The notes below the pieces were generated by a model that did not search any database, was not told where the DNA came from, and saw only the letters and a list, made by a program, of their open reading frames with translations. A program made the position numbers and the translations under genes. Below are positions 34,728 to 64,000 of a stretch of 64,000 bases of DNA, piece after piece. The DNA comes from Reichenbachiella carrageenanivorans (GTDB taxonomy: Bacteria; Bacteroidota; Bacteroidia; Cytophagales; Cyclobacteriaceae), in contig NZ_CP106735.1 of NCBI RefSeq assembly GCF_025639805.1, positions 4,748,736 to 4,812,735 of the forward strand, written 5' to 3'. Position 1 is the first letter of the stretch. Each line of letters opens with the position of its first letter.

Positions 34728-34915
34728 CCACAACGTCTCTGTATGAATCGTGCTGAGAGACGCTGATTTTGTTTCGGTTACAATATAGCCAAATCTCTGA
34801 TTTGGTCTATACATTTTCAATTGAGATAGATCAAGTCAGAGATATGGCGAGGCGGGGGAAAGCAGAATGTTTCAAGCCGCACTATCACAGCATGATTTTA
34901 TACAGCATGTTATCC
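34728..34915 (-). repeat. attC site of cassette L7 (array end)
   Basis: Inverse core GGATAAC (34909-34915) complements the cassette start after allowing one base change there. Arms GCTGTATAAAATCATGCTG / CAGCACGATTCATACAG pair with bulged bases. Family A centre with a CCAAATC...GATTTGG hairpin. The distal core GTTGTGG abuts chromosome. Confidence 0.8.
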
Positions 34916-35338
34916 CTCTTTTAATGCCATTTTCACATATGTTTCAGTATTGAAGACTGGGATTTGAGATTTTTTGTAGTCTTTGGTGTTTCTGGTGACT
35001 ATAGCGGAAATTTCTTTGCCACCTAGTGCTACTGAATGCTGAATCGCATCTTCGAAATCTTTGAATTCGCTGTTTACTGCATTTTCAATGTCTTTTCCGG
35101 AGACGCTAAGAATTTCAACTAATTCTAGAATTTCACCTATGATTGTTCTTGTTTTCTTGTCTCCAAGTTCTTTTCGTACGATGTAATGAACGTTGTTGAG
35201 GCAAATTGACGATGCGAACAGTTTAAGTTTTTTCTTATCAGCCAAATCAAATATTATAGATGCGGCATCAGCATGTGGTTGTCGATCAATTAAGAGATCA
35301 ATGATGACGTCAGTATCAACAAATATTTTAGATGCCAT
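34910..35338 (-). CDS. PIN-domain toxin (VapC-like ribonuclease)
   Basis: I start at the ATG at 35338 (MASKIFVDTDVIIDLLIDR, 142 residues); upstream residues to 35404 lie inside the antitoxin frame. The PIN acidic residues are visible: Asp in FVDTDVI, Glu in VRKELGD, Asp pair in FEDAIQHSVA and Asp in TRNTKDY. Such toxins cleave RNA with Mg2+. The start overlaps the antitoxin end by 11 bp, and the stop runs into the inverse core of attC. It occupies the last cassette of the left array; toxin-antitoxin cassettes are known to stabilise large integrons. Confidence 0.85.
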   Translation of the reverse strand: MASKIFVDTDVIIDLLIDRQPHADAASIIFDLADKKKLKLFASSICLNNVHYIVRKELGDKKTRTIIGEILELVEILSVSGKDIENAVNSEFKDFEDAIQHSVALGGKEISAIVTRNTKDYKKSQIPVFNTETYVKMALKEG

Positions 35339-35585
35339 GTTTGCTGTCTTTTGCTTCGTTAAGGTTGTTTTTGTAGCTGAATGAAGAGCCTGTCTTAAGT
35401 ACACCTCTTAGTTTTTGGACTCTAGGAGATAGCTGTTTTTCTGCGACTGACTGCATTTTAGACTCTGTTATGTATCTGAAATAGTTTTCTACCATTTCAG
35501 ATAAGCTGCGGCCTTTGTTTGAAGCATATTTTTTTGCTTGCTCTATAATTTCCTTTTCAAGCGTAAGAGTTAATTTGGTATTCAT
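35328..35585 (-). CDS. Antitoxin, DUF6364-like (partner of PIN toxin)
   Basis: Start at the ATG at 35585 (MNTKLTLTLEKEIIEQAKKYA, 85 residues); the longer frame extends into the attC of the previous cassette. The N-terminus fits a ribbon-helix-helix DNA-binding fold (NTKLTLTLEKEIIEQAKKYA then GRSLSEMVENYFRYI), the remainder a toxin-binding tail. It overlaps the toxin by 11 bp in the usual antitoxin-first order, so autoregulation of the pair is expected. Leaves about 75 bp for its own promoter after the core site. Confidence 0.8.
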   Translation of the reverse strand: MNTKLTLTLEKEIIEQAKKYASNKGRSLSEMVENYFRYITESKMQSVAEKQLSPRVQKLRGVLKTGSSFSYKNNLNEAKDSKHGI

Positions 35586-35654
35586 GACACGTGTTTTTTT
35601 GTTATTAGGTTGTACGTGCAAATTAACCAATGGTTTTCGAAAAATCCTAATGAG

Positions 35655-35884
35655 GGATATCGCCTGTGTAGGACGATGTGCCCTCACAGTTTAATTAAGG
35701 CAGAAAGATAACCGATCCGCGCACAACCGCAAAAGCTTGTTTAGCCATTAACGCAAGTTTGGAGCGACAAAATAACCACGAATGCGTTCTCGGCATTCTG
35801 CATATTCCGCGCGGAGCGGTGGTACTGATTCTGGCATTGATTCGAAAAGCTCGCAAGGGCATTCGTGCCTACACTATATTACCT
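35655..35884 (-). repeat. attC site of cassette L6, degenerate cores
   Basis: Arms GTGTAGGCACGAATGCCC / GGGCACATCGTCCTACAC are almost identical to those of R10 (family B). The inverse core is AGGTAAT instead of AGGTAAC, and the distal core reads GATATCC instead of GTTATCC; the expected T is recovered from the complementary GTTATCC at 34909. Both changes should reduce recombination. Confidence 0.75.
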
Positions 35885-36112
35885 CGCGTCTTTTCGCATT
35901 GGTTTAACCGTAATCAGTCTTCTAGTTCCGATGATCCCTCGCTTTATAAGAATGTTCACCAGCCATAGAATTGGCCAGAAAAGAAGATAAGTTAGACAGC
36001 CCAAGTCACCTCCAAACTCTGTTAGGATTCGATTCTTTCGTTCAGGGAGTTCGAAAGAAGTTCGCTTTAGGGTTTTGCCAAAAAGTTGCAACTCTTCACC
36101 AGTCCAACCCAA
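35879..36112 (-). CDS. Small membrane protein of cassette L6
   Basis: 77 residues beginning at a TTG; no internal ATG could serve. One strong hydrophobic helix (CLTYLLFWPILWLVNILI) with a basic C-terminus. It overlaps the preceding 114-codon gene by 46 bp in another frame, and the stop lies in the attC inverse core. The overlap and weak start leave open that this is the frameshifted C-terminal part of one ~180-residue protein. No family recognised. Confidence 0.45.
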   Translation of the reverse strand: MGWTGEELQLFGKTLKRTSFELPERKNRILTEFGGDLGCLTYLLFWPILWLVNILIKRGIIGTRRLITVKPMRKDAR

Positions 36113-36411
36113 TTCAGAGGAACTTTCAAGAAGTTGTTAAGTCTCTCCACGTTCTCCGAAGTTAGTTTGCCAAATTTCTGAGGGTTAGGCCCGATAGATT
36201 CACCAGACCAAGCAGTTGTTTCGGAACTGTAATATTGTACATCTTCAATTTCATTCCAATCGTTACTTAGCCAAATGAATGAAATCCAACAAGTTGAAAC
36301 GTTCGATTTAATGTCAAATAAACCAAATTTTTCGTTGGTCTTATCTTCAAAGGTGAATTCGTCCCCGTTGAAATTTTTATTTATGTAATCTTTCCAGTTC
36401 GAGTACTCCAT
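36067..36411 (-). CDS. Hypothetical protein of cassette L6
   Basis: 114 residues, ATG about 28 bp after the cassette start. Rich in Trp, Asn and acidic residues (YSNWKDYINKNFNGDEFTFED, WLSNDWNEIEDVQYYSSE), with no signal peptide or membrane segment. Such small acidic cassette proteins can be immunity- or antitoxin-like, but I recognise no family. May continue into the overlapping membrane ORF through a frameshift. Confidence 0.5.
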   Translation of the reverse strand: MEYSNWKDYINKNFNGDEFTFEDKTNEKFGLFDIKSNVSTCWISFIWLSNDWNEIEDVQYYSSETTAWSGESIGPNPQKFGKLTSENVERLNNFLKVPLNWVGLVKSCNFLAKP

Positions 36412-36441
36412 TATTTCTCAAAGGGACTAATGCGAGGTAAC

Positions 36442-36655
36442 CTTTAGCTTTCCTGTCTATAATTAATCAAAGAAATAAAGGTTTTACTTTTAATAGTAAA
36501 AGAAAGCAAGCCAGAACTACGCGCTAACCAAGTTACCCAGACTTATCGGGCGATTCAGGGCTTGCTTTCCATTGTTAAATGTTCAGATAGATATTCAGGG
36601 ATCCCGATCCGTCGAGATGCCCTAACATCAAGGTTTTGAACTTAATATTGAAATT
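36442..36655 (+). ncRNA. Candidate bridge/seekRNA region of IS110 copy 1
   Basis: Noncoding left end of the element. An 11-bp perfect stem GAAAGCAAGCC (36502-36512) / GGCTTGCTTTC (36559-36569) encloses a 46-base loop containing CGCTAAC (36522-36528), the complement of an attC core GTTAGCG. Further 3', ATAGATATTC (36587-36596) resembles the complement of the element's right terminus (ATAGATATC). IS110 elements encode guide RNAs in this position with separate target- and donor-binding loops. The RNA itself is predicted, not shown. Confidence 0.6.
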
Positions 36656-37675
36656 ATGGAAAATACCACCCCTAAACAAATCTTCTACCCACATATCGTG
36701 GGTATAGACATTAGCAAAATGAGTATTGATGTGGCTTTGATTAACAGCTCATCGATGAAGTGCAACAATGGCTTGTTTAGTAATGATAGCGAAGGCTTCC
36801 AGAAAATGAAAAGATGGCTTAAACAACATGGCAATGACTGTGGTGAGGACATCCTTTTCTGCATGGAACATACCGGTATCTATACCAGAAACATTGTCAA
36901 GTATTTGCTCAAAAGAGGATGCAAAGTTTGGCTGGAATCCTCCCTGCACATCAAAAGAAGCATGGGACTAATCAGGGGTAAGTCAGACAAAATCGACGCT
37001 GAAAGAATTGCCAATTTTGCTTTTGATCATCAACGTGATGCCAAACTGGTCAAACTCTCACATCCTACCTTAAACCGCCTCAAAGATCTAATGAAAACCA
37101 GAATGAGGCTTCAAAAAAGTTTACACAGTCAGCAAATTGCTGTAGATGAGTTGACCAAAGTAGACCCAAAAGCAGGACGTGAAATCGAAAGAATCAGTAG
37201 GTCAGCTATCAGTGGGTTAAAAAAATCTTTAGATAAAGTTGAAGCCAAAATGGACGAATTGATTCAGATAGATAAACACTTAAAGACCCTCTACGAATTG
37301 GTCACTTCGGTGAAAAGTGTAGGCAAGGTTTTGGCCGTGGATCTGATCGTTTATACAGAAGGATTTACTCGCATGTTGGACAACCGAAAGCTGGCTTGTT
37401 ATTGCGGTGTAGCTCCTTTCGAATACAGTAGTGGAACCAGCATATTTGCCAGTCCAGGCACATCAAGTTTTGCCAACAAACAACTCAAATTTCATCTACA
37501 CATGTGTGCGATGAATGCCATCAAATGTCACAAAGAACTTCGAGGATATTACCTTCGGAAAACCGAAGAAGGGAAAAGTAAAATGAGTGCACTCAATGCA
37601 GTGAGAAACAAACTACTCCATAGAGTAGTCGCCGTAGTAAAAAGAGGAACTCCTTATCAAGAGAAATTGGATTAA
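36656..37675 (+). CDS. IS110 family transposase (DEDD recombinase), copy 1
   Basis: 339 residues. The N-terminal RuvC-like DEDD domain shows GIDISKMSIDVAL, CMEHTGIYTRN and SDKIDAERIANFAFDH. The C-terminal transposase_20 domain contains VKSVGKVLAVDLIVYTEGF and the Ser motif CGVAPFEYSSGTS. Together they catalyse RNA-guided strand exchange through the acidic cluster and a Ser nucleophile. Copy 2 differs visibly only at residue 211 (Thr here, Ala there), so the two insertions are recent. Confidence 0.95.
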   Translation: MENTTPKQIFYPHIVGIDISKMSIDVALINSSSMKCNNGLFSNDSEGFQKMKRWLKQHGNDCGEDILFCMEHTGIYTRNIVKYLLKRGCKVWLESSLHIKRSMGLIRGKSDKIDAERIANFAFDHQRDAKLVKLSHPTLNRLKDLMKTRMRLQKSLHSQQIAVDELTKVDPKAGREIERISRSAISGLKKSLDKVEAKMDELIQIDKHLKTLYELVTSVKSVGKVLAVDLIVYTEGFTRMLDNRKLACYCGVAPFEYSSGTSIFASPGTSSFANKQLKFHLHMCAMNAIKCHKELRGYYLRKTEEGKSKMSALNAVRNKLLHRVVAVVKRGTPYQEKLD

Positions 37676-37711
37676 AAAAAGACCAATACGCTTGTTTTTA
37701 CCATAGATATC

Positions 37712-37819
37712 GTCTATGTATGGTGAGTGCGCTTACACTCTCTAATACCACTAAAGTATCGAATTGCAGATACAGTTGAAAATATCTCAAAAGCGCATTC
37801 ACTATACATTTTGTTGGGT
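37712..37819 (-). repeat. attC site of cassette L5, interrupted by the IS
   Basis: Inverse core ACCCAAC (GTTGGGT on + at 37813-37819) complements the L5 start at 40723-40729. Arms TGTATAGTGAATGCGC / GCGCACTCACCATACA. A short attC (~108 bp). The distal core GTTACCT is displaced to 36435-36441 by the IS. Confidence 0.8.
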
Positions 37820-37839
37820 GTAGTTTTTCATTATCTTTG
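37809..37839 (+). promoter_or_regulatory. Promoter candidate for the cassette methyltransferase
   Basis: TTTTG (37809-37813) and TATCTTTG (37832-37839) are 18 bp apart, a good Bacteroidota promoter. The -33 element overlaps the attC inverse core. Transcription would begin near 37846, after the ATG at 37842, so the ATG at 37875 is the more likely start. Confidence 0.6.
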
Positions 37840-37874
37840 TCATGTCGTGCAATGATACTTATAATATTCAAAAT

Positions 37875-39749
37875 ATGCAGAGCTTACAAAAAGATCTAAT
37901 TTTCCCATTGAATGATAGAGATGATTACTTGAAGGTGTTCAAGGAGATATATTATCACCTTTATTCTAACAGTAATGTTAGTAGGGCAGAGGTGTTAATT
38001 AAGGATATCTCTAAAGTTCTTTTGTATTGTTTATCAAATACAGATCAGAAAAAGAGCGATTCTGATACCATATTTAAAGTTCTTAAAAAACAGTATCCAG
38101 ACATTGAAATGTTTATTACCCCTTTTGAATTAGAAAAAGAGCACATTGAATTTGTGTTCGATAAGCTAATTGATATCGATATCCAAAATGCACCCGCACA
38201 CATAATTGGGGATGCTTTTCAATCATTAGTTGGACCGAATTTAAGAGGTGATAAAGGACAGTTTTTCACACCTAAGTCAGTTGTTTCTTCGATGGTACAG
38301 ATTTTATCGCCAAAGGAGTCAGATGTAATATGTGATCCTGCATGTGGTACAGGAGGTTTTTTAGTTGAAGCATTTACGTCTTTCGCAAACAATAAGAAGC
38401 ACTTCTGTGGACAATTGATAGGTATTGAGAAAGATGAATTCTTGTCAAACACAGCGACTTCAATATTGGAAATCTATTCCAAAAGTAATTTTAATATTAT
38501 TAATAGGAATTCACTTGATTTAAGAGATAAAGATTTAGCTCGCAATCTAGGAGAAGTTGATGTGATATTAACTAATCCACCGTTTGGAGCAAAAATTGGC
38601 ATCAAGGATAAAGAAATTCTTGGTCAATATGAGTTTGGTCATAGTTGGTCTTATGTTAAGAGCGAGGATAAATGGTTTAAATCTAATCAGCTATTAAATG
38701 AGCAATCCCCACAATTGCTCTTTCTAGAATTATGTTTTAAACTTTTGAAAAAAGGAGGAAAAGCAGGAATAGTCCTTCCAGAGGGAATTTTCGGAAATAA
38801 AAGTTTGGGATACGTATGGGATTATATTAGGTCTCAAGGTCAAATAATTGGAATGATTGATTGTCCAAGGACGTTGTTTCAACCCAGTACAGATGTTAAA
38901 ACTAATATTCTTTTTTTTGAAAAGGGAACGGAATCTAAGAATGAGTTTCTAGTTGCTGTTGCCGAAAATTGTGGTCATGATAAAAGAGGCAGAAGCCTGT
39001 CTAGTAAAGGTGAAAAAGTTAAGGATGATTTCGATTTACTCGGAAAATCATTTAATAATGGACTTCAAAATTGGAGTTCAGCCTGTGTGAAGGATAAATA
39101 TTACGTTGTTCCAAGATATTGTGTGAAGGAAAATAATTGGAAGAATAAGCAAATATTCGAGTTTGATGTAAAAAGTTTTATATCAATTAACGAGTTGGTT
39201 GACTCTAATCAACTTGCTATAAGGAAAGGAAATGAAGTGGGTTCGGAAGCATATGGAACTGGAGATATTCCATTTATCAGAACTTCTGATTTGATCAACC
39301 TAGAAATCAACTATGATCCTACTAAGTCAGTTAGTGAAGAGGTTTACTCAAATTTCAAGAGTCTACAGAGTATAGAAGAAAATGATATTCTCATGGTAGC
39401 TGATGGTAGATACAGGATTGGTAAAACATCTATGATATTGAATGGGATGACTAAGTGTGTTGTTCAAAGCCATGTGAAAATAATTAGAGTACTAAAATCA
39501 TCAATTTATTCTCCTTTCGAATTACTCTATATATTCAATCAAAAACCTGTTATTCAACAAATTAGGAGTCTCATTTTTATACAATCTACACTTGGGAGTA
39601 TTGGTAATAGATTAAATGAACTAATCCTGCCTATTCCAGAAAAGAATGATTCATGGAATTTAATGATCCAAGATTTCACAGAAACTCTTGTTGAGAGGAA
39701 TAGGCTACTACATAAGTTGAATGACAACATTATAGATGATGTTTTTTAA
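37875..39749 (+). CDS. N6-adenine DNA methyltransferase with fused specificity domain (R-M)
   Basis: 624 residues from the ATG at 37875 (an upstream ATG at 37842 lies before the predicted transcription start). HsdM-like fold: helical N-terminus, SAM motif DPACGTGGFLVEAF (about 154-167) and catalytic NPPF (about 234). The C-terminal ~220 residues resemble an HsdS-type target-recognition domain (AYGTGDIPFIRTSDLINLEI, then SLIFIQSTLGSIGNRLNELI), so modification and recognition are in one chain. No nuclease domain is present; the HNH gene that converges on it (4-bp overlap) is the likely restriction partner. It faces against the cassette direction and has its own promoter. Confidence 0.88.
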   Translation: MQSLQKDLIFPLNDRDDYLKVFKEIYYHLYSNSNVSRAEVLIKDISKVLLYCLSNTDQKKSDSDTIFKVLKKQYPDIEMFITPFELEKEHIEFVFDKLIDIDIQNAPAHIIGDAFQSLVGPNLRGDKGQFFTPKSVVSSMVQILSPKESDVICDPACGTGGFLVEAFTSFANNKKHFCGQLIGIEKDEFLSNTATSILEIYSKSNFNIINRNSLDLRDKDLARNLGEVDVILTNPPFGAKIGIKDKEILGQYEFGHSWSYVKSEDKWFKSNQLLNEQSPQLLFLELCFKLLKKGGKAGIVLPEGIFGNKSLGYVWDYIRSQGQIIGMIDCPRTLFQPSTDVKTNILFFEKGTESKNEFLVAVAENCGHDKRGRSLSSKGEKVKDDFDLLGKSFNNGLQNWSSACVKDKYYVVPRYCVKENNWKNKQIFEFDVKSFISINELVDSNQLAIRKGNEVGSEAYGTGDIPFIRTSDLINLEINYDPTKSVSEEVYSNFKSLQSIEENDILMVADGRYRIGKTSMILNGMTKCVVQSHVKIIRVLKSSIYSPFELLYIFNQKPVIQQIRSLIFIQSTLGSIGNRLNELILPIPEKNDSWNLMIQDFTETLVERNRLLHKLNDNIIDDVF

Positions 39750-40423
39750 GTGTTTTTTGACCTAGTGAGAATAGCAGCAATCCACTCATAAAACTCATCT
39801 AATGTTTTATTTCCTTGAGCAATATTGCATTCTCGGTGTCCAAATCCAACATTCATTGGGTCATGCATTCGTGGGTTTAAATGGCATGTTTCTAGATTCG
39901 CTTTTCCTCTTTGTGCTGTATGGAATAAATCGAATCCGATCTTGTCAAGGCAAATTGCACAGGTAGTTATATTTGACATTTCGCCAAAGTGTGACTCTAA
40001 ATATTCTTTTATGTTATCGGGACATTTTGGAGCTCCCTCCATTTGATAAACTAACCATGTCAACTTAATTGCTACTTGAATACAAGAATCATAGTCAGCA
40101 GCTTTTTCTCTAAGTTTTGCTACAACTCCATCTTTTAGGTTTTCCATGTTAATGCCAAACTTTTTCAAATTTTCATCTGATGCAAGCATTACCCACCTCA
40201 AAATCCTGTTTGGCCCAGCATCCTCACTTTTCCAGGCAGCTCCTGTAGTCATTGTAGAATCTCTTTTAATCTTATCAGAAATTCGTTTAAAGTTCTTGGA
40301 TAGGTGTTCTAAAAATGGAAACTCTGAACAACTACCAGTATGCCCCATTTCTAGATGACATTTTTTGATTTGTAATTTATCATATTTAGATCTACTAGAA
40401 ATCTCCTTATAGCAATACTTCAT
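39746..40423 (-). CDS. HNH endonuclease, probable restriction enzyme
   Basis: 225 residues. The C-terminal ~75 residues hold a zinc-binding HNH motif: TTCAICLDKIG supplies the first Cys pair, LETCHLNPRMHDP the HN region and GFGHRECNIAQGNKTLDEF the final His/Cys/Asn. The N-terminal part is helical with a further Cys/His cluster (KKCHLEMGHTGSC). Start overlaps the C-protein stop by 4 bp, and its end overlaps the methyltransferase by 4 bp in convergent orientation. Order C-R with opposing M is typical of controlled type II systems. Confidence 0.8.
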   Translation of the reverse strand: MKYCYKEISSRSKYDKLQIKKCHLEMGHTGSCSEFPFLEHLSKNFKRISDKIKRDSTMTTGAAWKSEDAGPNRILRWVMLASDENLKKFGINMENLKDGVVAKLREKAADYDSCIQVAIKLTWLVYQMEGAPKCPDNIKEYLESHFGEMSNITTCAICLDKIGFDLFHTAQRGKANLETCHLNPRMHDPMNVGFGHRECNIAQGNKTLDEFYEWIAAILTRSKNT

Positions 40424-40650
40424 ATAGGTTTGTCAATTTTTTCAATTTCAATGAAAAATTGACTCGGAGAAACCTCTAGTGCATTACAAATTGCATCAAT
40501 GTTTACAAGGGAAAGATTCCTTTCACCTCTTTCTATACTTCCAATGTAGGTTCTATGAAGCCCACATTTGAACGCAAAATCTTCTTGTGATAATGATTTT
40601 GAAATTCTTATTGATCGAAGTACTACCCCAAATTTTTCTTCAATTGTCAT
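40420..40650 (-). CDS. R-M controller (C) protein, XRE-type HTH
   Basis: 76 residues, a single XRE helix-turn-helix (KSLSQEDFAFKCGLHRTYIG, then SIERGERNLSLVNIDAICNALEVSPSQFF). Size and motif, especially LHRTYIGSIERGERNLS, match C proteins of Esp1396I/PvuII-type systems, which activate and then repress their own C-R operon to delay restriction. A C-box lies 36 bp upstream. Coupled to the HNH gene by 4-bp overlap. This makes cassette L5 a self-contained, self-timed restriction-modification unit. Confidence 0.85.
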   Translation of the reverse strand: MTIEEKFGVVLRSIRISKSLSQEDFAFKCGLHRTYIGSIERGERNLSLVNIDAICNALEVSPSQFFIEIEKIDKPI

Positions 40651-40685
40651 TGAATATTATTTTGGAGTAAAATTAGCTCTATGAA

Positions 40686-40710
40686 TACTATGAGTCTACA
40701 GACTATAAGT
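40686..40710 (-). promoter_or_regulatory. C-box operator of the cassette R-M system
   Basis: On the minus strand: ACTTATAGTC (40701-40710), TGTAG spacer, ACTCATAGTA (40686-40695). Two half-palindromic boxes of the ACTTATAGTC type with a TGTRG spacer are what I recall for C-protein operators such as that of Esp1396I. It lies between the cassette core site (40729) and the C gene start (40650). Confidence 0.75.
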
Positions 40711-40722
40711 AGCGTTTATTAC

Positions 40723-40962
40723 ACCCAACGACCATGTATGTGTCGTGCGATTCGTAATTGATGTAGACGAAGCTAGTGATTTTTACTTTGTCAGCCCAAC
40801 AGCAGACCTTCAAAGACAGCCTGACTGATTCTACTCTAACGAGAATGCAGCTCGTCTTGGCTGGCTAGTGGAGCAAGTAAAAATCACATGCTATACATCA
40901 GCTGTTTACCAGAAACCACTGGTGATCCGTCTGTGCGCATGACAGCATACAACATGTTGTCT
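40723..40962 (-). repeat. attC site of cassette L4
   Basis: Inverse core AGACAAC (GTTGTCT on + at 40956-40962) complements the L4 start at 41429. Arms GTATGCTGTCATGCG / CGCACGACACATAC with one extra C. Apparently identical to the R4 attC except for the distal core, GTTGGGT here and GTTAGGT there, as expected when different cassettes follow. Confidence 0.85.
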
Positions 40963-41429
40963 TTTCGTTATTTTTTCGTTCCGTTCCGGGATGTTCGATA
41001 GTGCTCGATACTTTTTTCTTGATAAAAAAGTAACCAAAAAATCAAGGCTGTGGATCATTTAGCTAAAATTCGCTGCCTTCCGCTGAAAAGAAACAAACTC
41101 GACCGACCCTTCGCTCGTCCAACCCTTCGGCCTCAAACAGTGTTTCTTTTTTAACCGCTCCTGTCAGTGAATTTCTTAACGCTAAATCCTCCAATGCCGA
41201 AAAAAAAAGGTGCTGATTTTGGCCAGAGGAATGGTTTTCAGCCTGCAGCTTCACTATTTTCATTGCTTCCGCCCCTGCGCTACCTACTTAAGCAAGCTTC
41301 CTGCGTTCCCAACGTTTAAGCATGAAACCGTTCACCTACTGGCTGAAAACAATCGAATTCCCTCAAAAGTCCCCGTTTTCTTTGGCTCTGCGTATAGTTA
41401 TGATTTTTAGAAAGGCAATGAAAGACAAC
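40730..41429 (-). mobile_element. Cassette L4, gene-poor, duplicate of R4
   Basis: A 700-bp cassette; an apparently identical 700-bp copy (R4) lies in the right array in the opposite absolute orientation. The only ORF in cassette direction (41063-41263, 66 codons) is low in complexity and unconvincing. Positions about 41010-41047 contain a GATAAAAAAGTAACCAAAAA motif that I recall as a widespread Bacteroidota intergenic repeat. I regard this cassette as noncoding or as carrying an RNA or repeat. Confidence 0.6.
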
Positions 41430-41652
41430 GCCCGCATATAGCGATGTGCCCATGCGGATTCTAAAAGCACTAAAGTAGCCGAATCACTCCAAACCGCCAA
41501 AGCCAGTCTGGTCGCTCAGTCTCACAGGCGCCTATCGGCATACGAATGACCATTCCTCGGCATTCTACCGCTTCCCGAGTGAATCGGCGGAGCATGTTAT
41601 GGCATTGATTCGGTCACACAGCTATGGGCATGCGCTATATGCATTGTTAGGC
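41423..41652 (-). repeat. attC site of cassette L3
   Basis: Inverse core GCCTAAC (GTTAGGC on + at 41646-41652) complements the L3 start at 42104. Arms GCATATAGCGCATGCCCATA / TGGGCACATCGCTATATGC. Family B. Distal core GTTGTCT. Confidence 0.85.
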
Positions 41653-42081
41653 ATTTTTTTCTTCCATTCGGTTCAGAAAATGATTGTTGATTCGTTTTGC
41701 TGCAAATTGAACTCCCAGTGTCATAAATAGAGCATCTATAGCCACTGTAAATGCAATTACTCCATAGATTGCTTCGTCAAATCCCGAAGTTGATTCGAAA
41801 CTGACGTAGTACCATAATGCCCAGAGTTCACAGATAACTGCCCAAAGAGTTAAGAAGATAATTAGTTTGATTTTTTCGGCTTTGTTGAAATGTCGACCAA
41901 AGTTTTTAGTGAAGTGCCAGCATATTGGAGTTAGGGTAGCATAAACGATTAGAAATAGCCCGAACATTCCTAGTCGTTTTCCTGGTGCAATTGCGTCCAA
42001 CACGAAACCAAATGTTAGCCAAAATACTGGTAGTACTAAAGAATATAGAAATAGGTTTGGTGTTTTAGATGATTCGTTCAT
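41647..42081 (-). CDS. Small integral membrane protein of cassette L3
   Basis: 144 residues from the ATG at 42081 (a TTG at 42087 is in frame). Four predicted membrane helices (LYSLVLPVFWLTFGFVLDA; MFGLFLIVYATLTPICW; LIIFLTLWAVICELWALWY; GVIAFTVAIDALFMTLGVQF) with a short charged C-terminus. The layout resembles small four-helix membrane families of unknown function. The ATG is 23 bp from the core site, and the stop overlaps the attC inverse core, as is usual in tightly packed cassettes. Confidence 0.7.
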   Translation of the reverse strand: MNESSKTPNLFLYSLVLPVFWLTFGFVLDAIAPGKRLGMFGLFLIVYATLTPICWHFTKNFGRHFNKAEKIKLIIFLTLWAVICELWALWYYVSFESTSGFDEAIYGVIAFTVAIDALFMTLGVQFAAKRINNHFLNRMEEKNA

Positions 42082-42097
42082 GTTCAAGTTTAATAAT

Positions 42098-42286
42098 GCC
42101 TAACGCCACTGTATCAATCGTGGCGTGTGACTTAATTTAAGTTTCGGCTACAAGATAGCCAAATCTCTGATTTGCGCTATCCCTTTTGATTCCATAGTGC
42201 CAATCTGAGATATGTCGGGGCTTCCAGAAAGCAGAGGACTTTCGTTCACAGCTGAACCGCCATGATTTGATCACAGCTTGTTAGCA
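42098..42286 (-). repeat. attC site of cassette L2
   Basis: Inverse core TGCTAAC (GTTAGCA on + at 42280-42286) complements the L2 start at 42977. Arms CTGTGATCAAATCATGGCGG / CGCCACGATTGATACAG with extra left-arm bases. Family A: the centre is closely similar to the R1/R3 attC. Distal core GTTAGGC. Confidence 0.88.
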
Positions 42287-42958: not shown

Positions 42959-42970
42959 TTAGATTGTTGA

Positions 42971-56408: not shown

Positions 56409-56446
56409 ACTCCAACGAACGAATAAGCAAGACGAAAATAAACGGG

Positions 56447-56676
56447 CTCTAACATAGCGTGATAGCGAATGCCCATGCTGCGTGACCAATGGTGTGCGGG
56501 AAACAGCACCGCCGCGCCGCTCAGGAATCAATAGAATACCGAGGAATGGTCATTCGTGACTCAAGCTGTCTCGATCAACAGGAATGGCTAAATAGACTTT
56601 TGTAGTTTGTCGCGATTCGGCTACTTTAGTGCTTTATCAAACCGTGTGGGCACATCGCCATACGCGGACGTTATCT
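56447..56676 (+). repeat. attC site of cassette R6
   Basis: Inverse core CTCTAAC complements GTTAGAG (55994); the pairing extends to GGGCTCTAAC/GTTAGAGCCC. Arms GCGTGATAGCGAATGCCCA / GTGGGCACATCGCCATACGC. Family B. Distal core GTTATCT at 56670. Confidence 0.9.
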
Positions 56677-56680
56677 TCCA

Positions 56681-57598
56681 CTAATCTTCTAAATTTAATT
56701 GCTCGGCTCGGAGTATTCTTTTATGAACTTTAGTGACTTTGTATTCCTTGTTTTCGTACGTCCCTGCAAACTCATTGTATACTTGTTTTATGGCTAAGTC
56801 ACAAACAAGAATATCCCCATTAGAGAAACTCATACTGCCTTTAACGACTTTTATCAAGTAGTCATTATCCTCTATTTCAGCATTAATCTTAATCCCCTTG
56901 TAATAAAATTGCCACTTAAACCCTTTTGAAAAGACCACTTTGAATATATTCAAGTTAGCAAATTCGATAAGTTTATACTTTTCTCTTTCAATCCCTTCCG
57001 TATCCTCAAACAAATTGTCTTTCACGTCGAAATACTCAAACTCATTTTTTAGTATAGAAGATAACTCCTCATTCGAACTATCTAATAACTGAATACTTTC
57101 AACATCATCATCTTTATCTACTTTGTCAAATACATTTTTCAACTCAGACTGTATGTTAGGATTGCTTTTAATTGCGCTATAAATAGAACTATCAATCACA
57201 AAAACATCACCTTTAACGTTATAAATATTAGTTGTATTATTTTCTCCTATCTCCTCTTTAGAAGATTTCTTCCCTTTTAGATGCTTATAGAGCTCTATAA
57301 TTACCACAACAGACCCAGCAATACCTCCTACATTATTTAGAATATCTTGCCCTGAGGTAATCAAATTTGTTACCTGTTTAAAATCTATAAACAGTTCAAT
57401 TGGAAAGCTAGCAGGTGGTAATGCTCGTAGTTTTATTTTAAGGTCATAGTCTGGAGCTAAGCTGTTCTTAACTTCACGTATGAACTCAGCAAAATGTAAT
57501 TGGCTGGTATACAGGGTATCAAAATCAATATATTCTAAATCACCCCTGTATTTGAATGTGAACTTTTCTGCTTCCATTAGGTTAATCAGGTTTCTCAT
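56681..57598 (-). CDS. Hypothetical protein in reverse orientation in cassette R7
   Basis: 305 residues encoded against the cassette direction. There is an N-terminal alpha/beta region (LEYIDFDTLYTSQLHFAEFI), one hydrophobic segment (ILNNVGGIAGSVVVIIELYK, about 90-110), and a C-terminal beta domain (KLIEFANLNIFKVVFSKGFK, WQFYYKGIKINAEIEDNDYL). No family recognised. About 40 bp between its ATG and the attC must supply a promoter, so it is independent of array transcription. Confidence 0.65.
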   Translation of the reverse strand: MRNLINLMEAEKFTFKYRGDLEYIDFDTLYTSQLHFAEFIREVKNSLAPDYDLKIKLRALPPASFPIELFIDFKQVTNLITSGQDILNNVGGIAGSVVVIIELYKHLKGKKSSKEEIGENNTTNIYNVKGDVFVIDSSIYSAIKSNPNIQSELKNVFDKVDKDDDVESIQLLDSSNEELSSILKNEFEYFDVKDNLFEDTEGIEREKYKLIEFANLNIFKVVFSKGFKWQFYYKGIKINAEIEDNDYLIKVVKGSMSFSNGDILVCDLAIKQVYNEFAGTYENKEYKVTKVHKRILRAEQLNLED

Positions 57599-57638
57599 CG
57601 CAATATATTATTTAATTAAGCATAATCTAAAAAAAGGA

Positions 57639-57830
57639 AGATAACATGGTGTATAAGAGTCATGCTATGTAGATTGTTGAGTGAGTTTTTCTGCTTTCTG
57701 GAAGCACCGCCATATCTCAGATGTGATCTATTTGAATCAAAAATTGTATAGACCAAATCAGAGATTTGGCTATTTTGAATCCGAAGCATTATCTTCACCA
57801 AAACGCACGATCTATACACAGGCGTTATGG
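57639..57830 (+). repeat. attC site of cassette R7
   Basis: Inverse core AGATAAC complements GTTATCT (pairing over GGAAGATAAC/GTTATCTTCC). Arms GTGTATAAGAGTCATGC / GCACGATCTATACAC with an extra A. Family A. Distal core GTTATGG at 57824. Confidence 0.9.
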
Positions 57831-57846
57831 GTAACAGAATTGTAAT

Positions 57847-59043
57847 ATGAAGAAAACTGCTTATGGAACTCCATTCCTTATCAATAATCAGAACGAAAGA
57901 GTTCCATTAGAAAAAGAAGCTGCAATTGATGAACTGTCAATTCAAACCTTGATCTTCGAAGAGCCCGACTGCCTTCCAATAAGTGATATTGACGAATCCT
58001 ATAATCCTGTCATTCCTGTATGTACGGAACTTAACACTCCTGTTGGCCCCTTGGATGTACTCTTAGTATCTCCCAACGGTGAGATAACAATTGTAGAAAC
58101 GAAGCTGTGGAGAAACCCAGAAGCCAGACGGAAAGTTGTAGCCCAAGTTCTGGATTATGCTAAGGAACTTTCCAACTGGTCTTACGAAGACCTTCAAAGA
58201 GAAATAAACCGAAAATTAGGCACAAAAGGCAATACTCTTTATGAATTGGCAAAATCTAAAGACCCAAATTTGACTCCATCTGAACCCGATTTTATTGATT
58301 CAGTGAGTCGAAATTTATCAAGAGGGAAATTTTTGCTTCTTATAGCTGGAGATGGTGTACGTGAAGGCGCAAAAGGTATTGCTGAATTTCTCTCGAACGC
58401 TGGTCATTTGAATTTCACATTTGCGATGGTCGAACTCAGTATTTTTAAGGCTAAGGGTTTAGGTACGTTGATTTTACCAAAAACCTTGGTAAAAACTATC
58501 GAACTTTCAAAGTTGACAGTTGAAATACCCAAAGGGCTAATATTGGCACAAAATGATGATTTTGATGACAGATCAACAGATCCTGTTGTAATTGACTCTA
58601 AAAAGGAAATAGAGCGGAATTTCTACATTAAGTTCTGGAACGAGTTGATATCGCAGTTATCATTTGACGATCCAGGGCAACCAATGCCGAATCCTGCAAA
58701 AGGAACGAACCTTTACGTATATCCAGCACAATCAAAAAAAGCATGGATAAGTGCCTACTTCTCCAAAAGCCAACAAAAGGTTGGTGTCTATTTCAGAGTT
58801 TCAGGAGATGCTGAAGGAAAGGCAATTTTGGATTCTTTAGAAGATTCTAAAGAGGATATTAGAAAGGAACTTGGTGAACAAATACGGTTTAACTGGGATG
58901 GTGATTTTAACGCAGAAATAGCAATATCAATTAACGATGTATTCAGTGACTCCAACAGAGAAGAAATAAAGGACTTTTACAAGAACTGGCTAAACCAATT
59001 TGTAAATGTTTTTAGACCAAGAATCAAAAGAAACGGATTTTGA
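57847..59043 (+). CDS. PD-(D/E)XK nuclease-like + DUF4268 protein of cassette R8
   Basis: 398 residues. The N-terminal domain has a PD-(D/E)XK core: GPLDVLLVSPNGEITIVETK (D at about 69, E-x-K at about 80-82), then RRKVVAQVLDYA. The C-terminal ~140 residues (FYIKFWNELISQL; AWISAYFSKSQQKVGVYFRV) match DUF4268, often linked to nuclease domains. It could cleave or bind nucleic acid and act in defence, although no partner is in the cassette. ATG is 23 bp after the core. Confidence 0.75.
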   Translation: MKKTAYGTPFLINNQNERVPLEKEAAIDELSIQTLIFEEPDCLPISDIDESYNPVIPVCTELNTPVGPLDVLLVSPNGEITIVETKLWRNPEARRKVVAQVLDYAKELSNWSYEDLQREINRKLGTKGNTLYELAKSKDPNLTPSEPDFIDSVSRNLSRGKFLLLIAGDGVREGAKGIAEFLSNAGHLNFTFAMVELSIFKAKGLGTLILPKTLVKTIELSKLTVEIPKGLILAQNDDFDDRSTDPVVIDSKKEIERNFYIKFWNELISQLSFDDPGQPMPNPAKGTNLYVYPAQSKKAWISAYFSKSQQKVGVYFRVSGDAEGKAILDSLEDSKEDIRKELGEQIRFNWDGDFNAEIAISINDVFSDSNREEIKDFYKNWLNQFVNVFRPRIKRNGF

Positions 59044-59055
59044 AATTGAAAATAC

Positions 59056-59249
59056 CCATAACATGCTGTGATGAAATCATGCTTGGACAGTGTAAGAAGA
59101 TGCTTTTCTGCATTATGGAAGCCCCGCCAATTCTGCGAATTGGCCTATTGAGAAATTAAAAAAGTAATAGCCCACTTCGCAGAGTTGGCTATTTAGTAGA
59201 CGAAACATTATCTTCACCAAAACGCACGATTCATACAGAGTCGTTAGCG
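59056..59249 (+). repeat. attC site of cassette R8
   Basis: Inverse core CCATAAC complements GTTATGG. Arms CTGTGATGAAATCATGC / GCACGATTCATACAG with extra left-arm bases. Family A. Distal core GTTAGCG at 59243. Confidence 0.88.
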
Positions 59250-59265
59250 GTAAAAGAACAATCAT

Positions 59266-60048
59266 ATGCACCCTTTAGATCGAATTGCAATTAATGCTCA
59301 AAAGAAAGAAGAATCATATTTTGATGAATTGGCAGATTCACAGGAGTTCTATTCATTAAAAGCTGCATGTGACACCGAAGAAACTGGACCTAATTATCCT
59401 CAAATAAAAGATATTACTGGTGGCAACTGGGATATAAAAGATCCTAAATCGATGTACAATCAATTCACGTTTTATTCGACACCTACAGATACCGCCCCAG
59501 ATTTCGGAGTTTTTAATTTGTATGGCAGTTCAAAATTCACTGATTTAGTTAGTAATGGAGTCTTAGGAACATTTAGCCTGATTATTTCAGAAAAATTTAA
59601 GAATATCCTTGAGGATTTCGAGTTAGGTAACCATTGGTTTTTTCCAGTTTACTTAAATCATAAATCCGAGACGATGAAGTATTTTGTTCTCCACTTAAAA
59701 AATGATTTGAGCGATAGGGTTATTTATGAACAATCTATCTTCTATACCCAAGAAGGGCTCATTGGAAAAAACAAAAAAGATATAACTTTTGACAGTGAAG
59801 AGCATTACCAGAAATATAGGGAAGAACTAAAGAATCAATCCCCAAACAGTCTTTTACCAAAAACAAGTATTAAGGCTAAGAAAATAGTTATTGACAATTC
59901 TATAAATATTGATGTAGTAACTTCAAAGAGAACAGGAATAGATATATTCATATCAAGTAAATTGGCTAACAAAATTCTGGAAAGTCGCCTAACAGGAATC
60001 GATGTGAAGAAGACCAAAAAGCTACATAAGAATACCGCTAACAAATGA
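59266..60048 (+). CDS. Possible DUF1629/Imm11-like protein of cassette R9
   Basis: 260 residues, soluble. Features include DFGVFNLYGSSKFTDLVSNG, FKNILEDFELGNHWFFPVYL, and a late TGIDIFISSKLANKILESRL followed by TGIDV. The combination of an 'ILEDFxLxxHxFxPV' centre and a 'ISxKLxxxILxxxLTGI' end is what I associate with DUF1629/Imm11-type proteins that neutralise or accompany polymorphic toxins. The match is from memory and moderate. The stop lies inside the attC inverse core. Confidence 0.55.
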   Translation: MHPLDRIAINAQKKEESYFDELADSQEFYSLKAACDTEETGPNYPQIKDITGGNWDIKDPKSMYNQFTFYSTPTDTAPDFGVFNLYGSSKFTDLVSNGVLGTFSLIISEKFKNILEDFELGNHWFFPVYLNHKSETMKYFVLHLKNDLSDRVIYEQSIFYTQEGLIGKNKKDITFDSEEHYQKYREELKNQSPNSLLPKTSIKAKKIVIDNSINIDVVTSKRTGIDIFISSKLANKILESRLTGIDVKKTKKLHKNTANK

Positions 60049-60154
60049 TAAGCTCAATGAAGCAAACTGAGCTATAAGGAAATTTCAGTGCGAAACAGTA
60101 AATATAGAATCAATTTAAAAGGATGTGCTCACTGAGCTTATCTGATCGTTGTAT
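60036..60154 (+). repeat. attC site of cassette R9 (short)
   Basis: Inverse core CGCTAAC complements GTTAGCG. Arms GATAAGCTCAATGA / TCACTGAGCTTATC. About 119 bp and unrelated in its centre to families A-C. Distal core GTTGTAT at 60148. Confidence 0.85.
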
Positions 60155-60157
60155 GCC

Positions 60158-60691
60158 ATGAGCGATAATCCTATGAACACAGAATATCAAGAATTCCGAA
60201 CTCGCTTCATCAAAGGATCTGCATGGATGATAATATTCTACGCTGGACTGCTAACAGCCTTTTCCTTGTTCATTATGTACTTATTGCCCAACATTTGGGT
60301 AATTCTGATAATGCTAATTCCTGCTTCTCTTCTTCCTTTTGTAATAATTTTCCTCAAATCCTATAAGGTTCGTTTCGGAACAGACTTTATTGAGACCAAA
60401 AACTTATTTCGAACCAAGAGACTTAACCTTAAAGAAATTAAAAAATTCGGCATCTATATCCGTGGCAATCGAGCTGGCCCAACCAAACTAACTAGTGAAT
60501 TCAATATGGGTGATGTGAACGATGACGATTTGCTTTTTCATAACGTTTATCTAACCACGAACGAAGAATTCGACTTGTGGAACATGCGACCTAAAAAGCA
60601 TCTAAAATTCCCTTATCGCAAAGAACTTTATAGCATAGTTAAGGAGAAAATGGCAACTCAATCAAAAAAGACGGCATACAACATGGTGTAG
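60158..60691 (+). CDS. Membrane protein with PH-like domain, cassette R10
   Basis: 177 residues from the ATG at 60158 (a TTG at 60149 inside the core is in frame). Two membrane helices (MIIFYAGLLTAFSLFIMYL; IWVILIMLIPASLLPFVII) followed by a cytoplasmic beta domain (VRFGTDFIETKNLFRTKRLN, LKEIKKFGIYI) like the PH-type domains of small bacterial membrane proteins. Function unknown. Confidence 0.65.
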   Translation: MSDNPMNTEYQEFRTRFIKGSAWMIIFYAGLLTAFSLFIMYLLPNIWVILIMLIPASLLPFVIIFLKSYKVRFGTDFIETKNLFRTKRLNLKEIKKFGIYIRGNRAGPTKLTSEFNMGDVNDDDLLFHNVYLTTNEEFDLWNMRPKKHLKFPYRKELYSIVKEKMATQSKKTAYNMV

Positions 60692-60898
60692 GCACGAATG
60701 CCCTTGCGAGCTTTCCGAACCAATGCCAGAATCAGCACCACCGCTCCTCGCGGAATCTCTAGAATACCGATAACGCATTCGTGGTTTCCTTGGCGGTCTA
60801 AATCAAACGTAATGGCTAAACAGACTTTTGTGGTTGTGCGCGGATCGGCTATCTTTCTGCTTTAATCAAGCCGTGAGGGCACATCGTCCTACACAGGC
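60676..60898 (+). repeat. attC site of cassette R10, interrupted by the IS
   Basis: Inverse core ATACAAC complements GTTGTAT. Arms GTGTAGGCACGAATGCCC / GGGCACATCGTCCTACAC. Family B. The IS follows CACAGGC, and the distal core GTTAGCG resumes at 62169. Confidence 0.88.
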
Positions 60899-60934
60899 GA
60901 TATCTATGGTAAAAACAAGCGTATTGGTCTTTTT

Positions 60935-61954
60935 TTAATCCAATTTCTCTTGATAAGGAGTTCCTCTTTTTACTACGGCGACTACTCTATGGAGTAGTTT
61001 GTTTCTCACTGCATTGAGTGCACTCATTTTACTTTTCCCTTCTTCGGTTTTCCGAAGGTAATATCCTCGAAGTTCTTTGTGACATTTGATGGCATTCATC
61101 GCACACATGTGTAGATGAAATTTGAGTTGTTTGTTGGCAAAACTTGATGTGCCTGGACTGGCAAATATGCTGGTTCCACTACTGTATTCGAAAGGAGCTA
61201 CACCGCAATAACAAGCCAGCTTTCGGTTGTCCAACATGCGAGTAAATCCTTCTGTATAAACGATCAGATCCACGGCCAAAACCTTGCCTACACTTTTCAC
61301 CGAAGTGACCAATTCGTAGAGGGCCTTTAAGTGTTTATCTATCTGAATCAATTCGTCCATTTTGGCTTCAACTTTATCTAAAGATTTTTTTAACCCACTG
61401 ATAGCTGACCTACTGATTCTTTCGATTTCACGTCCTGCTTTTGGGTCTACTTTGGTCAACTCATCTACAGCAATTTGCTGACTGTGTAAACTTTTTTGAA
61501 GCCTCATTCTGGTTTTCATTAGATCTTTGAGGCGGTTTAAGGTAGGATGTGAGAGTTTGACCAGTTTGGCATCACGTTGATGATCAAAAGCAAAATTGGC
61601 AATTCTTTCAGCGTCGATTTTGTCTGACTTACCCCTGATTAGTCCCATACTTCTTTTGATGTGCAGGGAGGATTCCAGCCAAACTTTGCATCCTCTTTTG
61701 AGCAAATACTTGACAATGTTTCTGGTATAGATACCGGTATGTTCCATGCAGAAAAGGATGTCCTCACCACAGTCATTGCCATGTTGTTTAAGCCATCTTT
61801 TCATTTTCTGGAAGCCTTCGCTATCATTACTAAACAAGCCATTGTTGCACTTCATCGATGAGCTGTTAATCAAAGCCACATCAATACTCATTTTGCTAAT
61901 GTCTATACCCACGATATGTGGGTAGAAGATTTGTTTAGGGGTGGTATTTTCCAT
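60935..61954 (-). CDS. IS110 family transposase (DEDD recombinase), copy 2
   Basis: 339 residues, same as copy 1 except Ala instead of Thr at residue 211 (HLKALYELV). DEDD motifs (GIDISKMSID, MEHTGIYT, KIDAERIA) and the Ser-containing C-terminal domain are intact, so both copies should be active. See copy 1 for the reaction. The 3' end lies only 36 bp from the element's right end. Confidence 0.95.
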   Translation of the reverse strand: MENTTPKQIFYPHIVGIDISKMSIDVALINSSSMKCNNGLFSNDSEGFQKMKRWLKQHGNDCGEDILFCMEHTGIYTRNIVKYLLKRGCKVWLESSLHIKRSMGLIRGKSDKIDAERIANFAFDHQRDAKLVKLSHPTLNRLKDLMKTRMRLQKSLHSQQIAVDELTKVDPKAGREIERISRSAISGLKKSLDKVEAKMDELIQIDKHLKALYELVTSVKSVGKVLAVDLIVYTEGFTRMLDNRKLACYCGVAPFEYSSGTSIFASPGTSSFANKQLKFHLHMCAMNAIKCHKELRGYYLRKTEEGKSKMSALNAVRNKLLHRVVAVVKRGTPYQEKLD

Positions 61955-62168
61955 AATTTCAATATTAAGTTCAAAACCTTGATGTTAGGGCATCTCGACG
62001 GATCGGGATCCCTGAATATCTATCTGAACATTTAACAATGGAAAGCAAGCCCTGAATCGCCCGATAAGTCTGGGTAACTTGGTTAGCGCGTAGTTCTGGC
62101 TTGCTTTCTTTTACTATTAAAAGTAAAACCTTTATTTCTTTGATTAATTATAGACAGGAAAGCTAAAG
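61955..62168 (-). ncRNA. Candidate bridge/seekRNA region of IS110 copy 2
   Basis: Same sequence as in copy 1: stem arms at 62098-62108 and 62041-62051, loop with CGCTAAC on the minus strand (62082-62088). Here the guide-like sequence exactly complements the adjoining target core GTTAGCG (62169-62175), more closely than at copy 1 (GTTACCT). Confidence 0.6.
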
Positions 62169-62209
62169 GTTAGCGATAATTAGGCAAGAAGAAATACTGA
62201 AAATACTTA

Positions 62210-62974
62210 ATGTCAAATTCATATGAGACTTTTATTGAATTAGTAGCTCCATTCTTTGAGCATAATGGATTTCAATATTACACCCCAAAAGGCGTAATGT
62301 GGAATGCTGAATTGATGACAAAAGAATGGAGAAAGAACAGAAATTGGAAATCACAGGCTGATTTACAAACACCTGGTTACGAATGGTATAGCTATGATGT
62401 TAGATTTGACAGCTTTGAATCGGGTATATTTCTTAAAGAAGGCAACCATTTCACGCAGTACATAAAATTACAACCCTCAACAAAGAAAACAACAGTTCTA
62501 ATTTTCGGTATAGACGTTCCAGTGATAAATGATTTTCTAAATAGGTTAACTGATAAAGTTGGAAAAATTGAGAGAAAATTCGCCCCCTTCTCTACTGTTT
62601 ATATTGATACACATTATGGCTTTCCCTCTGAATCTACAATTGGAGATTGGTACTTAGGTTATTCAAGTCAAAAAAAATCTAATGAATCATACGACAAACT
62701 AAAAGCTCATTATGAAGGACTGGTATCTGCTTTTTTTGAACAAACTAATAGTATTCAAGGTCTCTGCATTTGGTTGAAAGAAATCGACTATTACGGTTTT
62801 GACAAGAAAATATCAAACAGCAAGGAAGAAAAGTTGCTAATTGACCTCTATCTTAACTACCCCAACCTCGGAGAGATAAAATCTAAGATTGGACAGAGTA
62901 GAAATGAACAAATCAAAGATAACCTTAAAAAACTACTTAGAAATGGCACTGATTTCCTTGAAAAATATCGCTAA
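62210..62974 (+). CDS. Hypothetical soluble protein of cassette R11
   Basis: 254 residues, no signal peptide or membrane helix. Begins YETFIELVAPFFEHNGFQYY; the centre is beta-rich and aromatic (GYEWYSYDVRFDSFESGIFL; KTTVLIFGIDVPVINDFLN), and the end is helical (KDNLKKLLRNGTDFLEKY). It resembles DUF4304-like immunity-type proteins in style, but I cannot assign a family. ATG is 41 bp after the core; the stop overlaps the attC. Confidence 0.6.
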   Translation: MSNSYETFIELVAPFFEHNGFQYYTPKGVMWNAELMTKEWRKNRNWKSQADLQTPGYEWYSYDVRFDSFESGIFLKEGNHFTQYIKLQPSTKKTTVLIFGIDVPVINDFLNRLTDKVGKIERKFAPFSTVYIDTHYGFPSESTIGDWYLGYSSQKKSNESYDKLKAHYEGLVSAFFEQTNSIQGLCIWLKEIDYYGFDKKISNSKEEKLLIDLYLNYPNLGEIKSKIGQSRNEQIKDNLKKLLRNGTDFLEKYR

Positions 62975-63144
62975 CAAATGCTATGAATGAATGGGGTTTT
63001 ATCGGTCAGGATACTTTGGTGGGGATTGGAAAGTCCGCCACAAGTCTTAAATTTAAATCAAGGCCGAGCCGCGTAGGCGTGGCTATGTGCGAGTCGAGCG
63101 GTTAATGCTTTCTAATCCCCACTCATCATAGCTGGTCGTTAGGC
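62969..63144 (+). repeat. attC site of cassette R11
   Basis: Inverse core CGCTAAC complements GTTAGCG (62169), which confirms the true cassette start on the far side of the IS. Arms as in R2 (family C). Distal core GTTAGGC at 63138. Confidence 0.9.
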
Positions 63145-63155
63145 TCAATTGCGGC

Positions 63156-63776
63156 ATGAACAAAATCCTCCTTCTCGTATTATCAATTTGTACATTCAGT
63201 TGTTCGAGCTCACGAACGAATTCATTATTGAACAACCCTACAATCAACCACAATTTTACGCCAGAAGAAATCACAGATCTTACAACAATTATGGACTTCT
63301 TTGAAAGTCAAATCTGTCTGACATCATCAACATCAATTGACAACTGTTATGACCTCTATCTGAATAAGCTTAAAGAATCGATCAGGAACAATAATATTAA
63401 GTTGAACATATCATACCCAAAACAAACGACCGAACTCTATGATAATATTTCATCGTCAACATTTCAAGAACTGTGGGGATTTGGTGAACTAAGTACATTT
63501 GATGTTCAGTCGAATAGCCGAGTGAAGTACAAGGATATAGGTCTCAATTATCAGAGCAAGTACGTTGACTTTCTAAAGGAACTTAGCCGAGAATACCCTG
63601 TGATCAATAATTACTATGAATCCTTTGTAGAAGCAGGTGATATCTCTCCTGCAATGATTTCAATAGTAACCAAGCATCAATCTTTTGAACTTTCAGACGT
63701 TAGGATAAGATTAGTAATTGCTGTGCACTGTCTAACAATGAATGACAAGTACGAACGACGAGAAAGGATAAACTGA
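63156..63776 (+). CDS. Lipoprotein of cassette R12
   Basis: 206 residues with a lipoprotein signal (MNKILLLVLSICTFSC, Cys16). The mature part is mainly helical and polar (FTPEEITDLTTIMDFFESQI; YVDFLKELSREYPVINNYYE). No domain recognised. ATG is 18 bp after the core; the stop is at the attC inverse core. Probably attached to the periplasmic face of a membrane. Confidence 0.65.
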   Translation: MNKILLLVLSICTFSCSSSRTNSLLNNPTINHNFTPEEITDLTTIMDFFESQICLTSSTSIDNCYDLYLNKLKESIRNNNIKLNISYPKQTTELYDNISSSTFQELWGFGELSTFDVQSNSRVKYKDIGLNYQSKYVDFLKELSREYPVINNYYESFVEAGDISPAMISIVTKHQSFELSDVRIRLVIAVHCLTMNDKYERRERIN

Positions 63777-64000
63777 GCCTAACATGGCGTATAGATGCAT
63801 GTGCGAACTGAGCATTTAGCCAGCTTCGGCGGAACAAGCCCGTGCATCTGCCGTGGCAATTACTTCTCTGCTTATAGTGAAGTCAGTTCGCCGCACCGGA
63901 AGATCGGCGGAACGCAGCTCTCACCGATTCGCTAGTAGGTTCGGCAGATTTTCACTACTTTGGCTGTATTATCAAACGACACGCACACGCACCATACGCA
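63777..64000 (+). repeat. attC site of cassette R12, cut by the window end
   Basis: Inverse core GCCTAAC complements GTTAGGC (63138). Left arm GGCGTATAGATGCATGTGCG and right-arm start CACACGCACCATACGC are visible; the distal core lies beyond the window. Confidence 0.8.

Follow-up and report, generated by a model that had tools for sequence, protein, structure and literature searches.

A probable distributed integron in Reichenbachiella carrageenanivorans: one Xer-like integrase gene and at least 15 attI sites

The final 64 kb (64,000 nucleotides) of the single 4,812,735-bp contig of Reichenbachiella carrageenanivorans, hereafter the window, carry an integrase gene, its adjoining attI site and two divergent cassette arrays, and we consider it very likely that they form the core of a distributed integron in which one integrase serves at least 15 attI sites. 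Copies of this attI are scattered along the chromosome and share a common GTT end; correctly paired cassette ends stand behind most copies in this genome, and whole cassettes recur exactly at different heads. Probably, a Xer-like integrase without the additional I2 domain of integron integrases acts in trans on dispersed promoter-plus-attI modules that multiply in the genome, which would provide many independently loaded, expressed first positions. On the same joint reading, the distributed integron would belong to this genus, with attI copies also in two related genera. We refer to the source genome as G000, to its contig as C1, and to relatives as G002, G003 and so on.

Results

The window has two heads that begin from one and the same sequence. 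As the initial annotation had reported, a 92-bp stretch occurs twice, inverted and with 100% identity, and its closing GTT is the start point of both arrays. These 92 bp comprise the last integrase codons, a palindrome and the GTT crossover; in a repeat scan of the window the same inverted arms appear as 102 nt at 96%. At the primary head attI adjoins the integrase gene, with the crossover GTT beginning 9 bp past the stop codon, and the layout in relatives is similar. The right array crosses the window end into base 1 of C1, which fits a closed circle. The principal features are as follows.

51177-51268 (+): attI of the right (primary) head, consisting of the integrase gene end and palindrome; crossover GTT at 51266-51268
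43504-43595 (-): attI of the left head, the same 92 bp, in which just the final ~26 codons of the integrase gene remain; GTT crossover at positions 43506-43504
50078-51256 (+): integrase gene, a XerA/Xer-like tyrosine recombinase of 392 aa from ATG with an extra N-terminal domain of ~110 aa, reading toward attI
51266-64000 (+): right cassette array, R1-R12, with at least one further cassette beyond the window; the last attC found ends at C1:2506
34732-43506 (-): left cassette array, L1-L7

The cassettes in both arrays have the ends expected of an integron, with attC sites that form foldable imperfect hairpins and have matching R'' and R'. The first seven bases are exactly complementary to the inverse core of the cassette's own attC in all of R1-R12 (12/12) and L1-L5 (5/5). 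The earlier count of seven left and twelve right cassettes stands, as does the single mismatch in L6 (AGGTAAT at 35884); L6 is not, as had been claimed, the sole exception, since L7 also deviates by one base (R' GATATCC versus inverse core GGATAAC), and the exact matches number 17 of 19 rather than 18. Folded attC sites had been predicted at the array positions, and the 15 sites that we folded (14 in the window, one beyond) indeed give bottom-strand hairpins of -33 to -81 kcal/mol under RNA parameters, energies that are given without a shuffled control. Arm alignments for extrahelical bases have no clear asymmetry (11, 14 and 13 of 38) and are not used as evidence here. The attC sites discussed individually, and one insertion, are these.

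51916-52116 (+): attC of R1, the same sequence as the attC of R3 at 54163-54363
42975-43210 (-): attC of L1, first of the left array
40727-40962 (-): attC of L4
34732-34915 (-): attC of L7, end of the left array
36427-37720 (+): IS110-family insertion in the attC of L5, with a near-identical copy at 60890-62183 (-) in the attC of R10

Insertion sequence (IS) elements of the IS110 type that seek attC sites are known, and insertions of this type, alike in sequence, interrupt three attC sites near R': those at 36427-37720 and 60890-62183 and one at the contig start (base 1).

Integrons are described as having one integrase, one attI and one array, in which the promoter-nearest cassettes are best expressed. 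In G000, a search with the 92-bp query found its last 40-52 bases again at 13 further chromosomal places (E 3.7e-17 to 7.7e-10, 87-96% identity), 7 on the plus and 6 on the minus strand. All 13 copies reach the query-final GTT, and a different sequence follows it at each. Ten weaker, self-palindromic or short matches were left uncounted. Together with the primary and left heads, the genome thus holds at least 15 attI sites rather than one. The initial annotation had proposed a double-headed integron with genes between its heads; the two inverted attI sites, their own arrays and the ordinary genes between them are all present, but that description is too narrow for a set of at least 15. The left head looks like one more dispersed attI copy that by chance lies 7.6 kb from the primary attI. 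An origin of the two heads by one inversion with staggered breaks was dropped, because the 13 other copies make a special event unnecessary.

Most of these dispersed copies are followed by cassettes. In a strict test, a head passes if the bases at its GTT are complementary, without mismatch, to an inverse core no more than 4 kb away that opens a hairpin site closed by GTT. Eight of the 13 dispersed heads pass, compared with 1 of 721 control GTTs (window positions 1-30000, both strands). In three of the five that fail (652725, 2643141 and 4398324), resemblance to known attC sites reveals an attC whose inverse core and R'' are correct but whose R' end is damaged, being either GAT or apparently truncated by an IS110 end. 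The ortholog of the gene at one dispersed site lacks attI in the next ~400 bp in 7 genomes of the same genus. GAT in place of GTT is seen at some cassette boundaries, namely at the dispersed heads 2643141 and 4398324 and at the L6/L7 boundary near 35657.

Whole cassettes are also shared exactly between heads, in four sets.

51266-52113 (+): cassette R1; R3 (53513-54360) and the second cassette of dispersed head C1:3511541 match it at 848/848 positions
54361-55060 (+): cassette R4; L4 in the left array (41429-40730, -) matches it at 700/700 positions
56670-57823 (+): cassette R7; the second cassette of dispersed head C1:3155902 matches it at 1154/1154 positions
55994-56669 (+): cassette R6; in another species, the second cassette of dispersed head G002:C7:2571285 matches it at 676/676 positions

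In every case the exact match ends 0-7 bp from the GTT boundaries and the neighbors differ; as in integrons, cassettes are shared and shuffled as exact units. To judge from the sequences, such sharing is the trace that site-specific exchange would be expected to leave.

Related genomes were compared, as the initial annotation had suggested. In five of nine relatives (G002, G003 and G004 of the same genus, G022 and G035 of the same family) the integrase gene is immediately followed by an array, and no linked attC chain was found in the other four (G005, G014, G001 and G012). Within 20 kb of the relatives' integrase no array in the opposite direction rose above noise, weak chains of three upstream of the G003 integrase (scores 16-18) being treated as noise.

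Multiple attI sites recur among relatives as well. We searched seven genomes with their own attI, namely G000 and six relatives (G002, G003, G004, G035, G014 and G012). G002 has 7 further copies ending at GTT (8 attI with the primary), of which 6 pass the strict cassette test and the seventh has one mismatch, and G003 has 4 further copies (5 with the primary), of which 3 pass. One G003 copy is counted though its alignment falls 5 bases short of the query end, where GTT stands, and weaker matches (2 in G002, six in G003) are not counted. Thus, 9 of 11 copies in these two genomes, and 17 of 24 when G000 is included, are followed by a cassette under the strict test. G004 has 1 further copy (2 attI with the primary), and a cassette follows it (1/1). 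G014 and G012, of two other genera, have 4 attI copies each, ending at GTT. The attI sequence differs between species, while within a genome the copies resemble the attI next to its own integrase, a pattern that would follow from copies serving the integrase of their own genome. In G002, nine predicted open reading frames in a single orientation separate two dispersed heads (C7:788567-797843); a long array at one of these heads is likely, its first attC having been checked.

Similar arrays may extend beyond these genomes. Downstream linked attC chains of at least three sites, counted without a control of their own, follow related integrase genes at 8 of 26 named loci (two Flavobacterium, Algibacter, Rufibacter, Winogradskyella, Seonamhaeicola, Algoriphagus and one Flavobacteriaceae); the 26 were taken from 80, and several have little downstream sequence. 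Integrons have been detected in Bacteroidota at varying prevalence, according to excerpts of PMC9668308.

The sequence upstream of the dispersed attI sites is itself shared in families. Eight of the 13 G000 copies have up to ~100 bp upstream in common, in a conserved module that runs from TTG through TATTCTTG or TATACTTG to GTT, and two more partial copies of the module occur without attI. Five G002 copies share 277-636 bp, and the homology ends within 4 bp of GTT. Since such families have ~100 to 636 bp in common as far as GTT, the unit that spreads may be a promoter-plus-attI module. Of 30 heads in four genomes, 16 have a loose promoter-like pattern, TTG-N17-23-TANNNTTG, upstream, compared with 3.3% of genomic controls and 2.5% of shuffles; the promoter consensus used is that of Bacteroidetes. 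Some copies retain part of the integrase-gene end: the left head has ~26 codons of it, one G003 copy a longer stretch, and copies in G012 and G014 shorter ones. With regard to attI moving as a cassette through an attC-like hairpin, inspection of the left edge of the G000 copy family by eye, rather than by a computed test, found no GTT with the expected complement.

The recombinase is not IntI by the strict definition, though the system looks like an integron, because it scores below the cut-off of the integron-integrase model and an IntI4 region goes unmatched. It matches models of the Xer/XerA type. Against TIGR02249 the whole protein reaches 193.5 bits, with a cut-off of 265, and the best stretches cover profile positions 5-178 and 240-313. 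Alignment to IntI4 (2a3v) likewise falls into two stretches, leaving IntI4 residues 206-244 without a counterpart; the IntI-specific additional (I2) domain is absent. Excerpts of PMC9668308 and PMC4792948 treat this region as defining and as the reader of attC extrahelical bases. No match over the cut-off of the integron-integrase model was found in the G000 genome. An AlphaFold2 model of the integrase (mean pLDDT 82.6, pTM 0.57) has XerA and IntI4 as its best structural matches as a whole, and gives the extra N-terminal domain strands and helices; no Pfam match above the cut-off was found for that domain. L141 was excluded from the structure alignment because of a stop in frame.

Discussion

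The integrase gene (50078-51256) leads into its own attI and array, and copies of this attI stand at no fewer than 14 other chromosomal places, the left head being one. We propose that the integrase acts in trans at these copies, recombining folded attC with attI, such that each head would take up cassettes independently. Because several heads would bring their own promoter, more cassettes could occupy the expressed first position than a single array allows.

A number of observations weigh against this proposal. Trans action and the promoter role are put forward here from patterns in DNA, from which recombination itself is also read. The strict promoter consensus is present at just 1 of 30 heads (controls 1.6% and 0.6%), the copies that carry the loose pattern are related to each other, and the pattern is absent at both heads of the window. 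Two of the five G000 heads that fail the cassette test (2790437 and 4386443) have just a seven-base R'' match ~1.0 and ~1.6 kb downstream, a weak match without a full attC. Not every head is independent: 652681 and 658191, with ~300 bp upstream in common, may have arisen by a single segmental duplication, and a pair of G002 heads agrees in first-cassette distances and sequence ends. The one dispersed head compared across the genus yielded no clean empty site, since gene order downstream differs. In G035 the search found no further copy, leaving one attI. Cassettes follow 1 of 4 copies in G014 and 0 of the 2 copies in G012 that have more than 4 kb of downstream sequence (1 with one mismatch); no array was found at the primary attI of G014 and G012 either. 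The integrase does pass NF040815, a model described as tyrosine recombinase/integron integrase, if barely (222.4 versus 220 bits). Finally, homologous recombination could also move identical cassettes in single cases.

Some of these points would suit an alternative in which duplications and IS rearrangements scattered the pieces of one ancestral array, along with attI relics, leaving the dispersed heads inactive. Truncated integrase ends at several copies are in keeping with such a history, as are the IS110 copies in attC, an end, seemingly of this same IS, at the dispersed heads with damaged attC, and the copy families with common upstream DNA, including the likely segmental duplication 652681/658191. 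We nonetheless regard a broken-up array as unlikely, given that 100% identical whole cassettes stand at different heads with differing neighbors and matches ending at GTTs, that dispersed attI sequences track each species' own attI, and that a cassette at a dispersed head of another species is identical to one here.

A different doubt concerns the enzyme. The array-adjacent protein lacks the IntI-specific insertion and the genome encodes further tyrosine recombinases, one of which, instead of the array-adjacent protein, might move the cassettes. This seems quite improbable: nothing in the genome exceeds the integron-integrase cut-off, the array lies downstream of the related gene in five of nine relatives, and attI overlaps the end of that gene. 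The copies could, alternatively, belong to a dispersed palindromic repeat, like the repetitive extragenic palindromic (REP) type, that serves as a chance insertion target and of which the primary attI is merely one instance. Many dispersed copies and a perfect or near-perfect palindromic core recall such repeats, but we consider this explanation very improbable in view of the 17 of 24 copies in G000, G002 and G003 that lead into a cassette under the strict test, and multiple attI sites would remain under it anyway. A mere REP element was dropped, since the copies keep a non-palindromic stretch through GTT and some, in G003, G012 and G014, retain part of the integrase-gene end. A plain two-headed integron, to which the other copies would be irrelevant, accounts for the two complete heads in the window but is hardly tenable, being already contradicted by 13 more copies, most with cassettes.

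A distributed integron would share much with known systems while differing from each. Sedentary chromosomal integrons of the Vibrio type have an integrase gene, adjacent attI, tandem cassettes, foldable attC and GTT boundaries. All of these are found here; in contrast to that type, there are many attI sites, the integrase reads toward attI, and it lacks the IntI-specific insertion. The remaining comparisons draw on excerpts of the cited papers. Transcription of the integrase toward attI, in cassette direction, is as in the Treponema integrons (PMC3607928), which differ from the present genome with its at least 15 attI. The initial annotation named no described example of a double-headed integron, yet there is a precedent for two attI sites in In104 of SGI1, a complex class 1 integron in which two attI, each with cassettes, lie in one element (PMC2297512, PMC7056807). 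Thus, a second head alone is not new; the two attI1 sites of In104 are inside one resistance element, whereas those described here are chromosome-wide and in both orientations. Cassettes at chromosomal sites away from the array are also reminiscent of attG insertion (Loot et al. 2024, as cited in PMC12444791), in which cassettes enter consensus sites that are neither attC nor attI; the sites here are attI homologues over 40-52 bases and hence not attG. Extra partial attI copies, reported to recombine, are known from delta-attI-type cassettes of mobile integrons (PMC12901181), where they are part of cassettes rather than scattered array heads. Clusters of attC lacking integrase (CALIN; PMC9024848) likewise place cassettes far from the integrase gene, but the dispersed sites in this genome keep attI at the head. 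Among the literature matches listed, with subscription papers and preprints mostly or wholly outside the scope, no title or abstract described dispersed attI sites.

If true, the supply of some 15 attI sites by a single integrase would alter both the route of cassettes to expression and the way they spread. Our results also suggest that the IntI-specific domain may not be needed for normal-looking attC use, and that a class of Bacteroidota systems may escape surveys based on IntI profiles.

Neighboring features of the window

The space between the two heads holds the following genes.

44019-49329: ordinary genes, encoding a GH20 hexosaminidase, a redoxin and two M16 peptidases
49568-49978 (-): gene for a 136-aa protein, divergent neighbor of the integrase gene, found beside the integrase in 7 loci (6 genomes) of relatives

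The genes at 44019-49329 have no match in the fetched loci around the relatives' integrase, and Rfam at gathering thresholds gave no match in 34000-64000. Homologues of the 136-aa protein number 54 at E <= 0.001, itself included; several are named Reichenbachiella or Marinoscillum, and two are named Zn-ribbon proteins by their sources. An ArsR-like winged-helix fragment (43596-43730, -), with a weak Pfam match below the cut-off (E 0.0016), abuts the left attI copy. Within the left array, cassette L5 (36441-40729) carries a restriction-modification set: on the plus strand an N6 DNA methylase (37842-39749), and on the minus strand both a DraIII-type endonuclease (39746-40423; Pfam DraIII, E 5.7e-88) and a small helix-turn-helix protein (40420-40650). 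Just upstream of the window, a tyrosine recombinase gene pair is present twice, 7.6 kb apart and with equal scores, at G000:C1:4735894-4737598 and 4743519-4745223.

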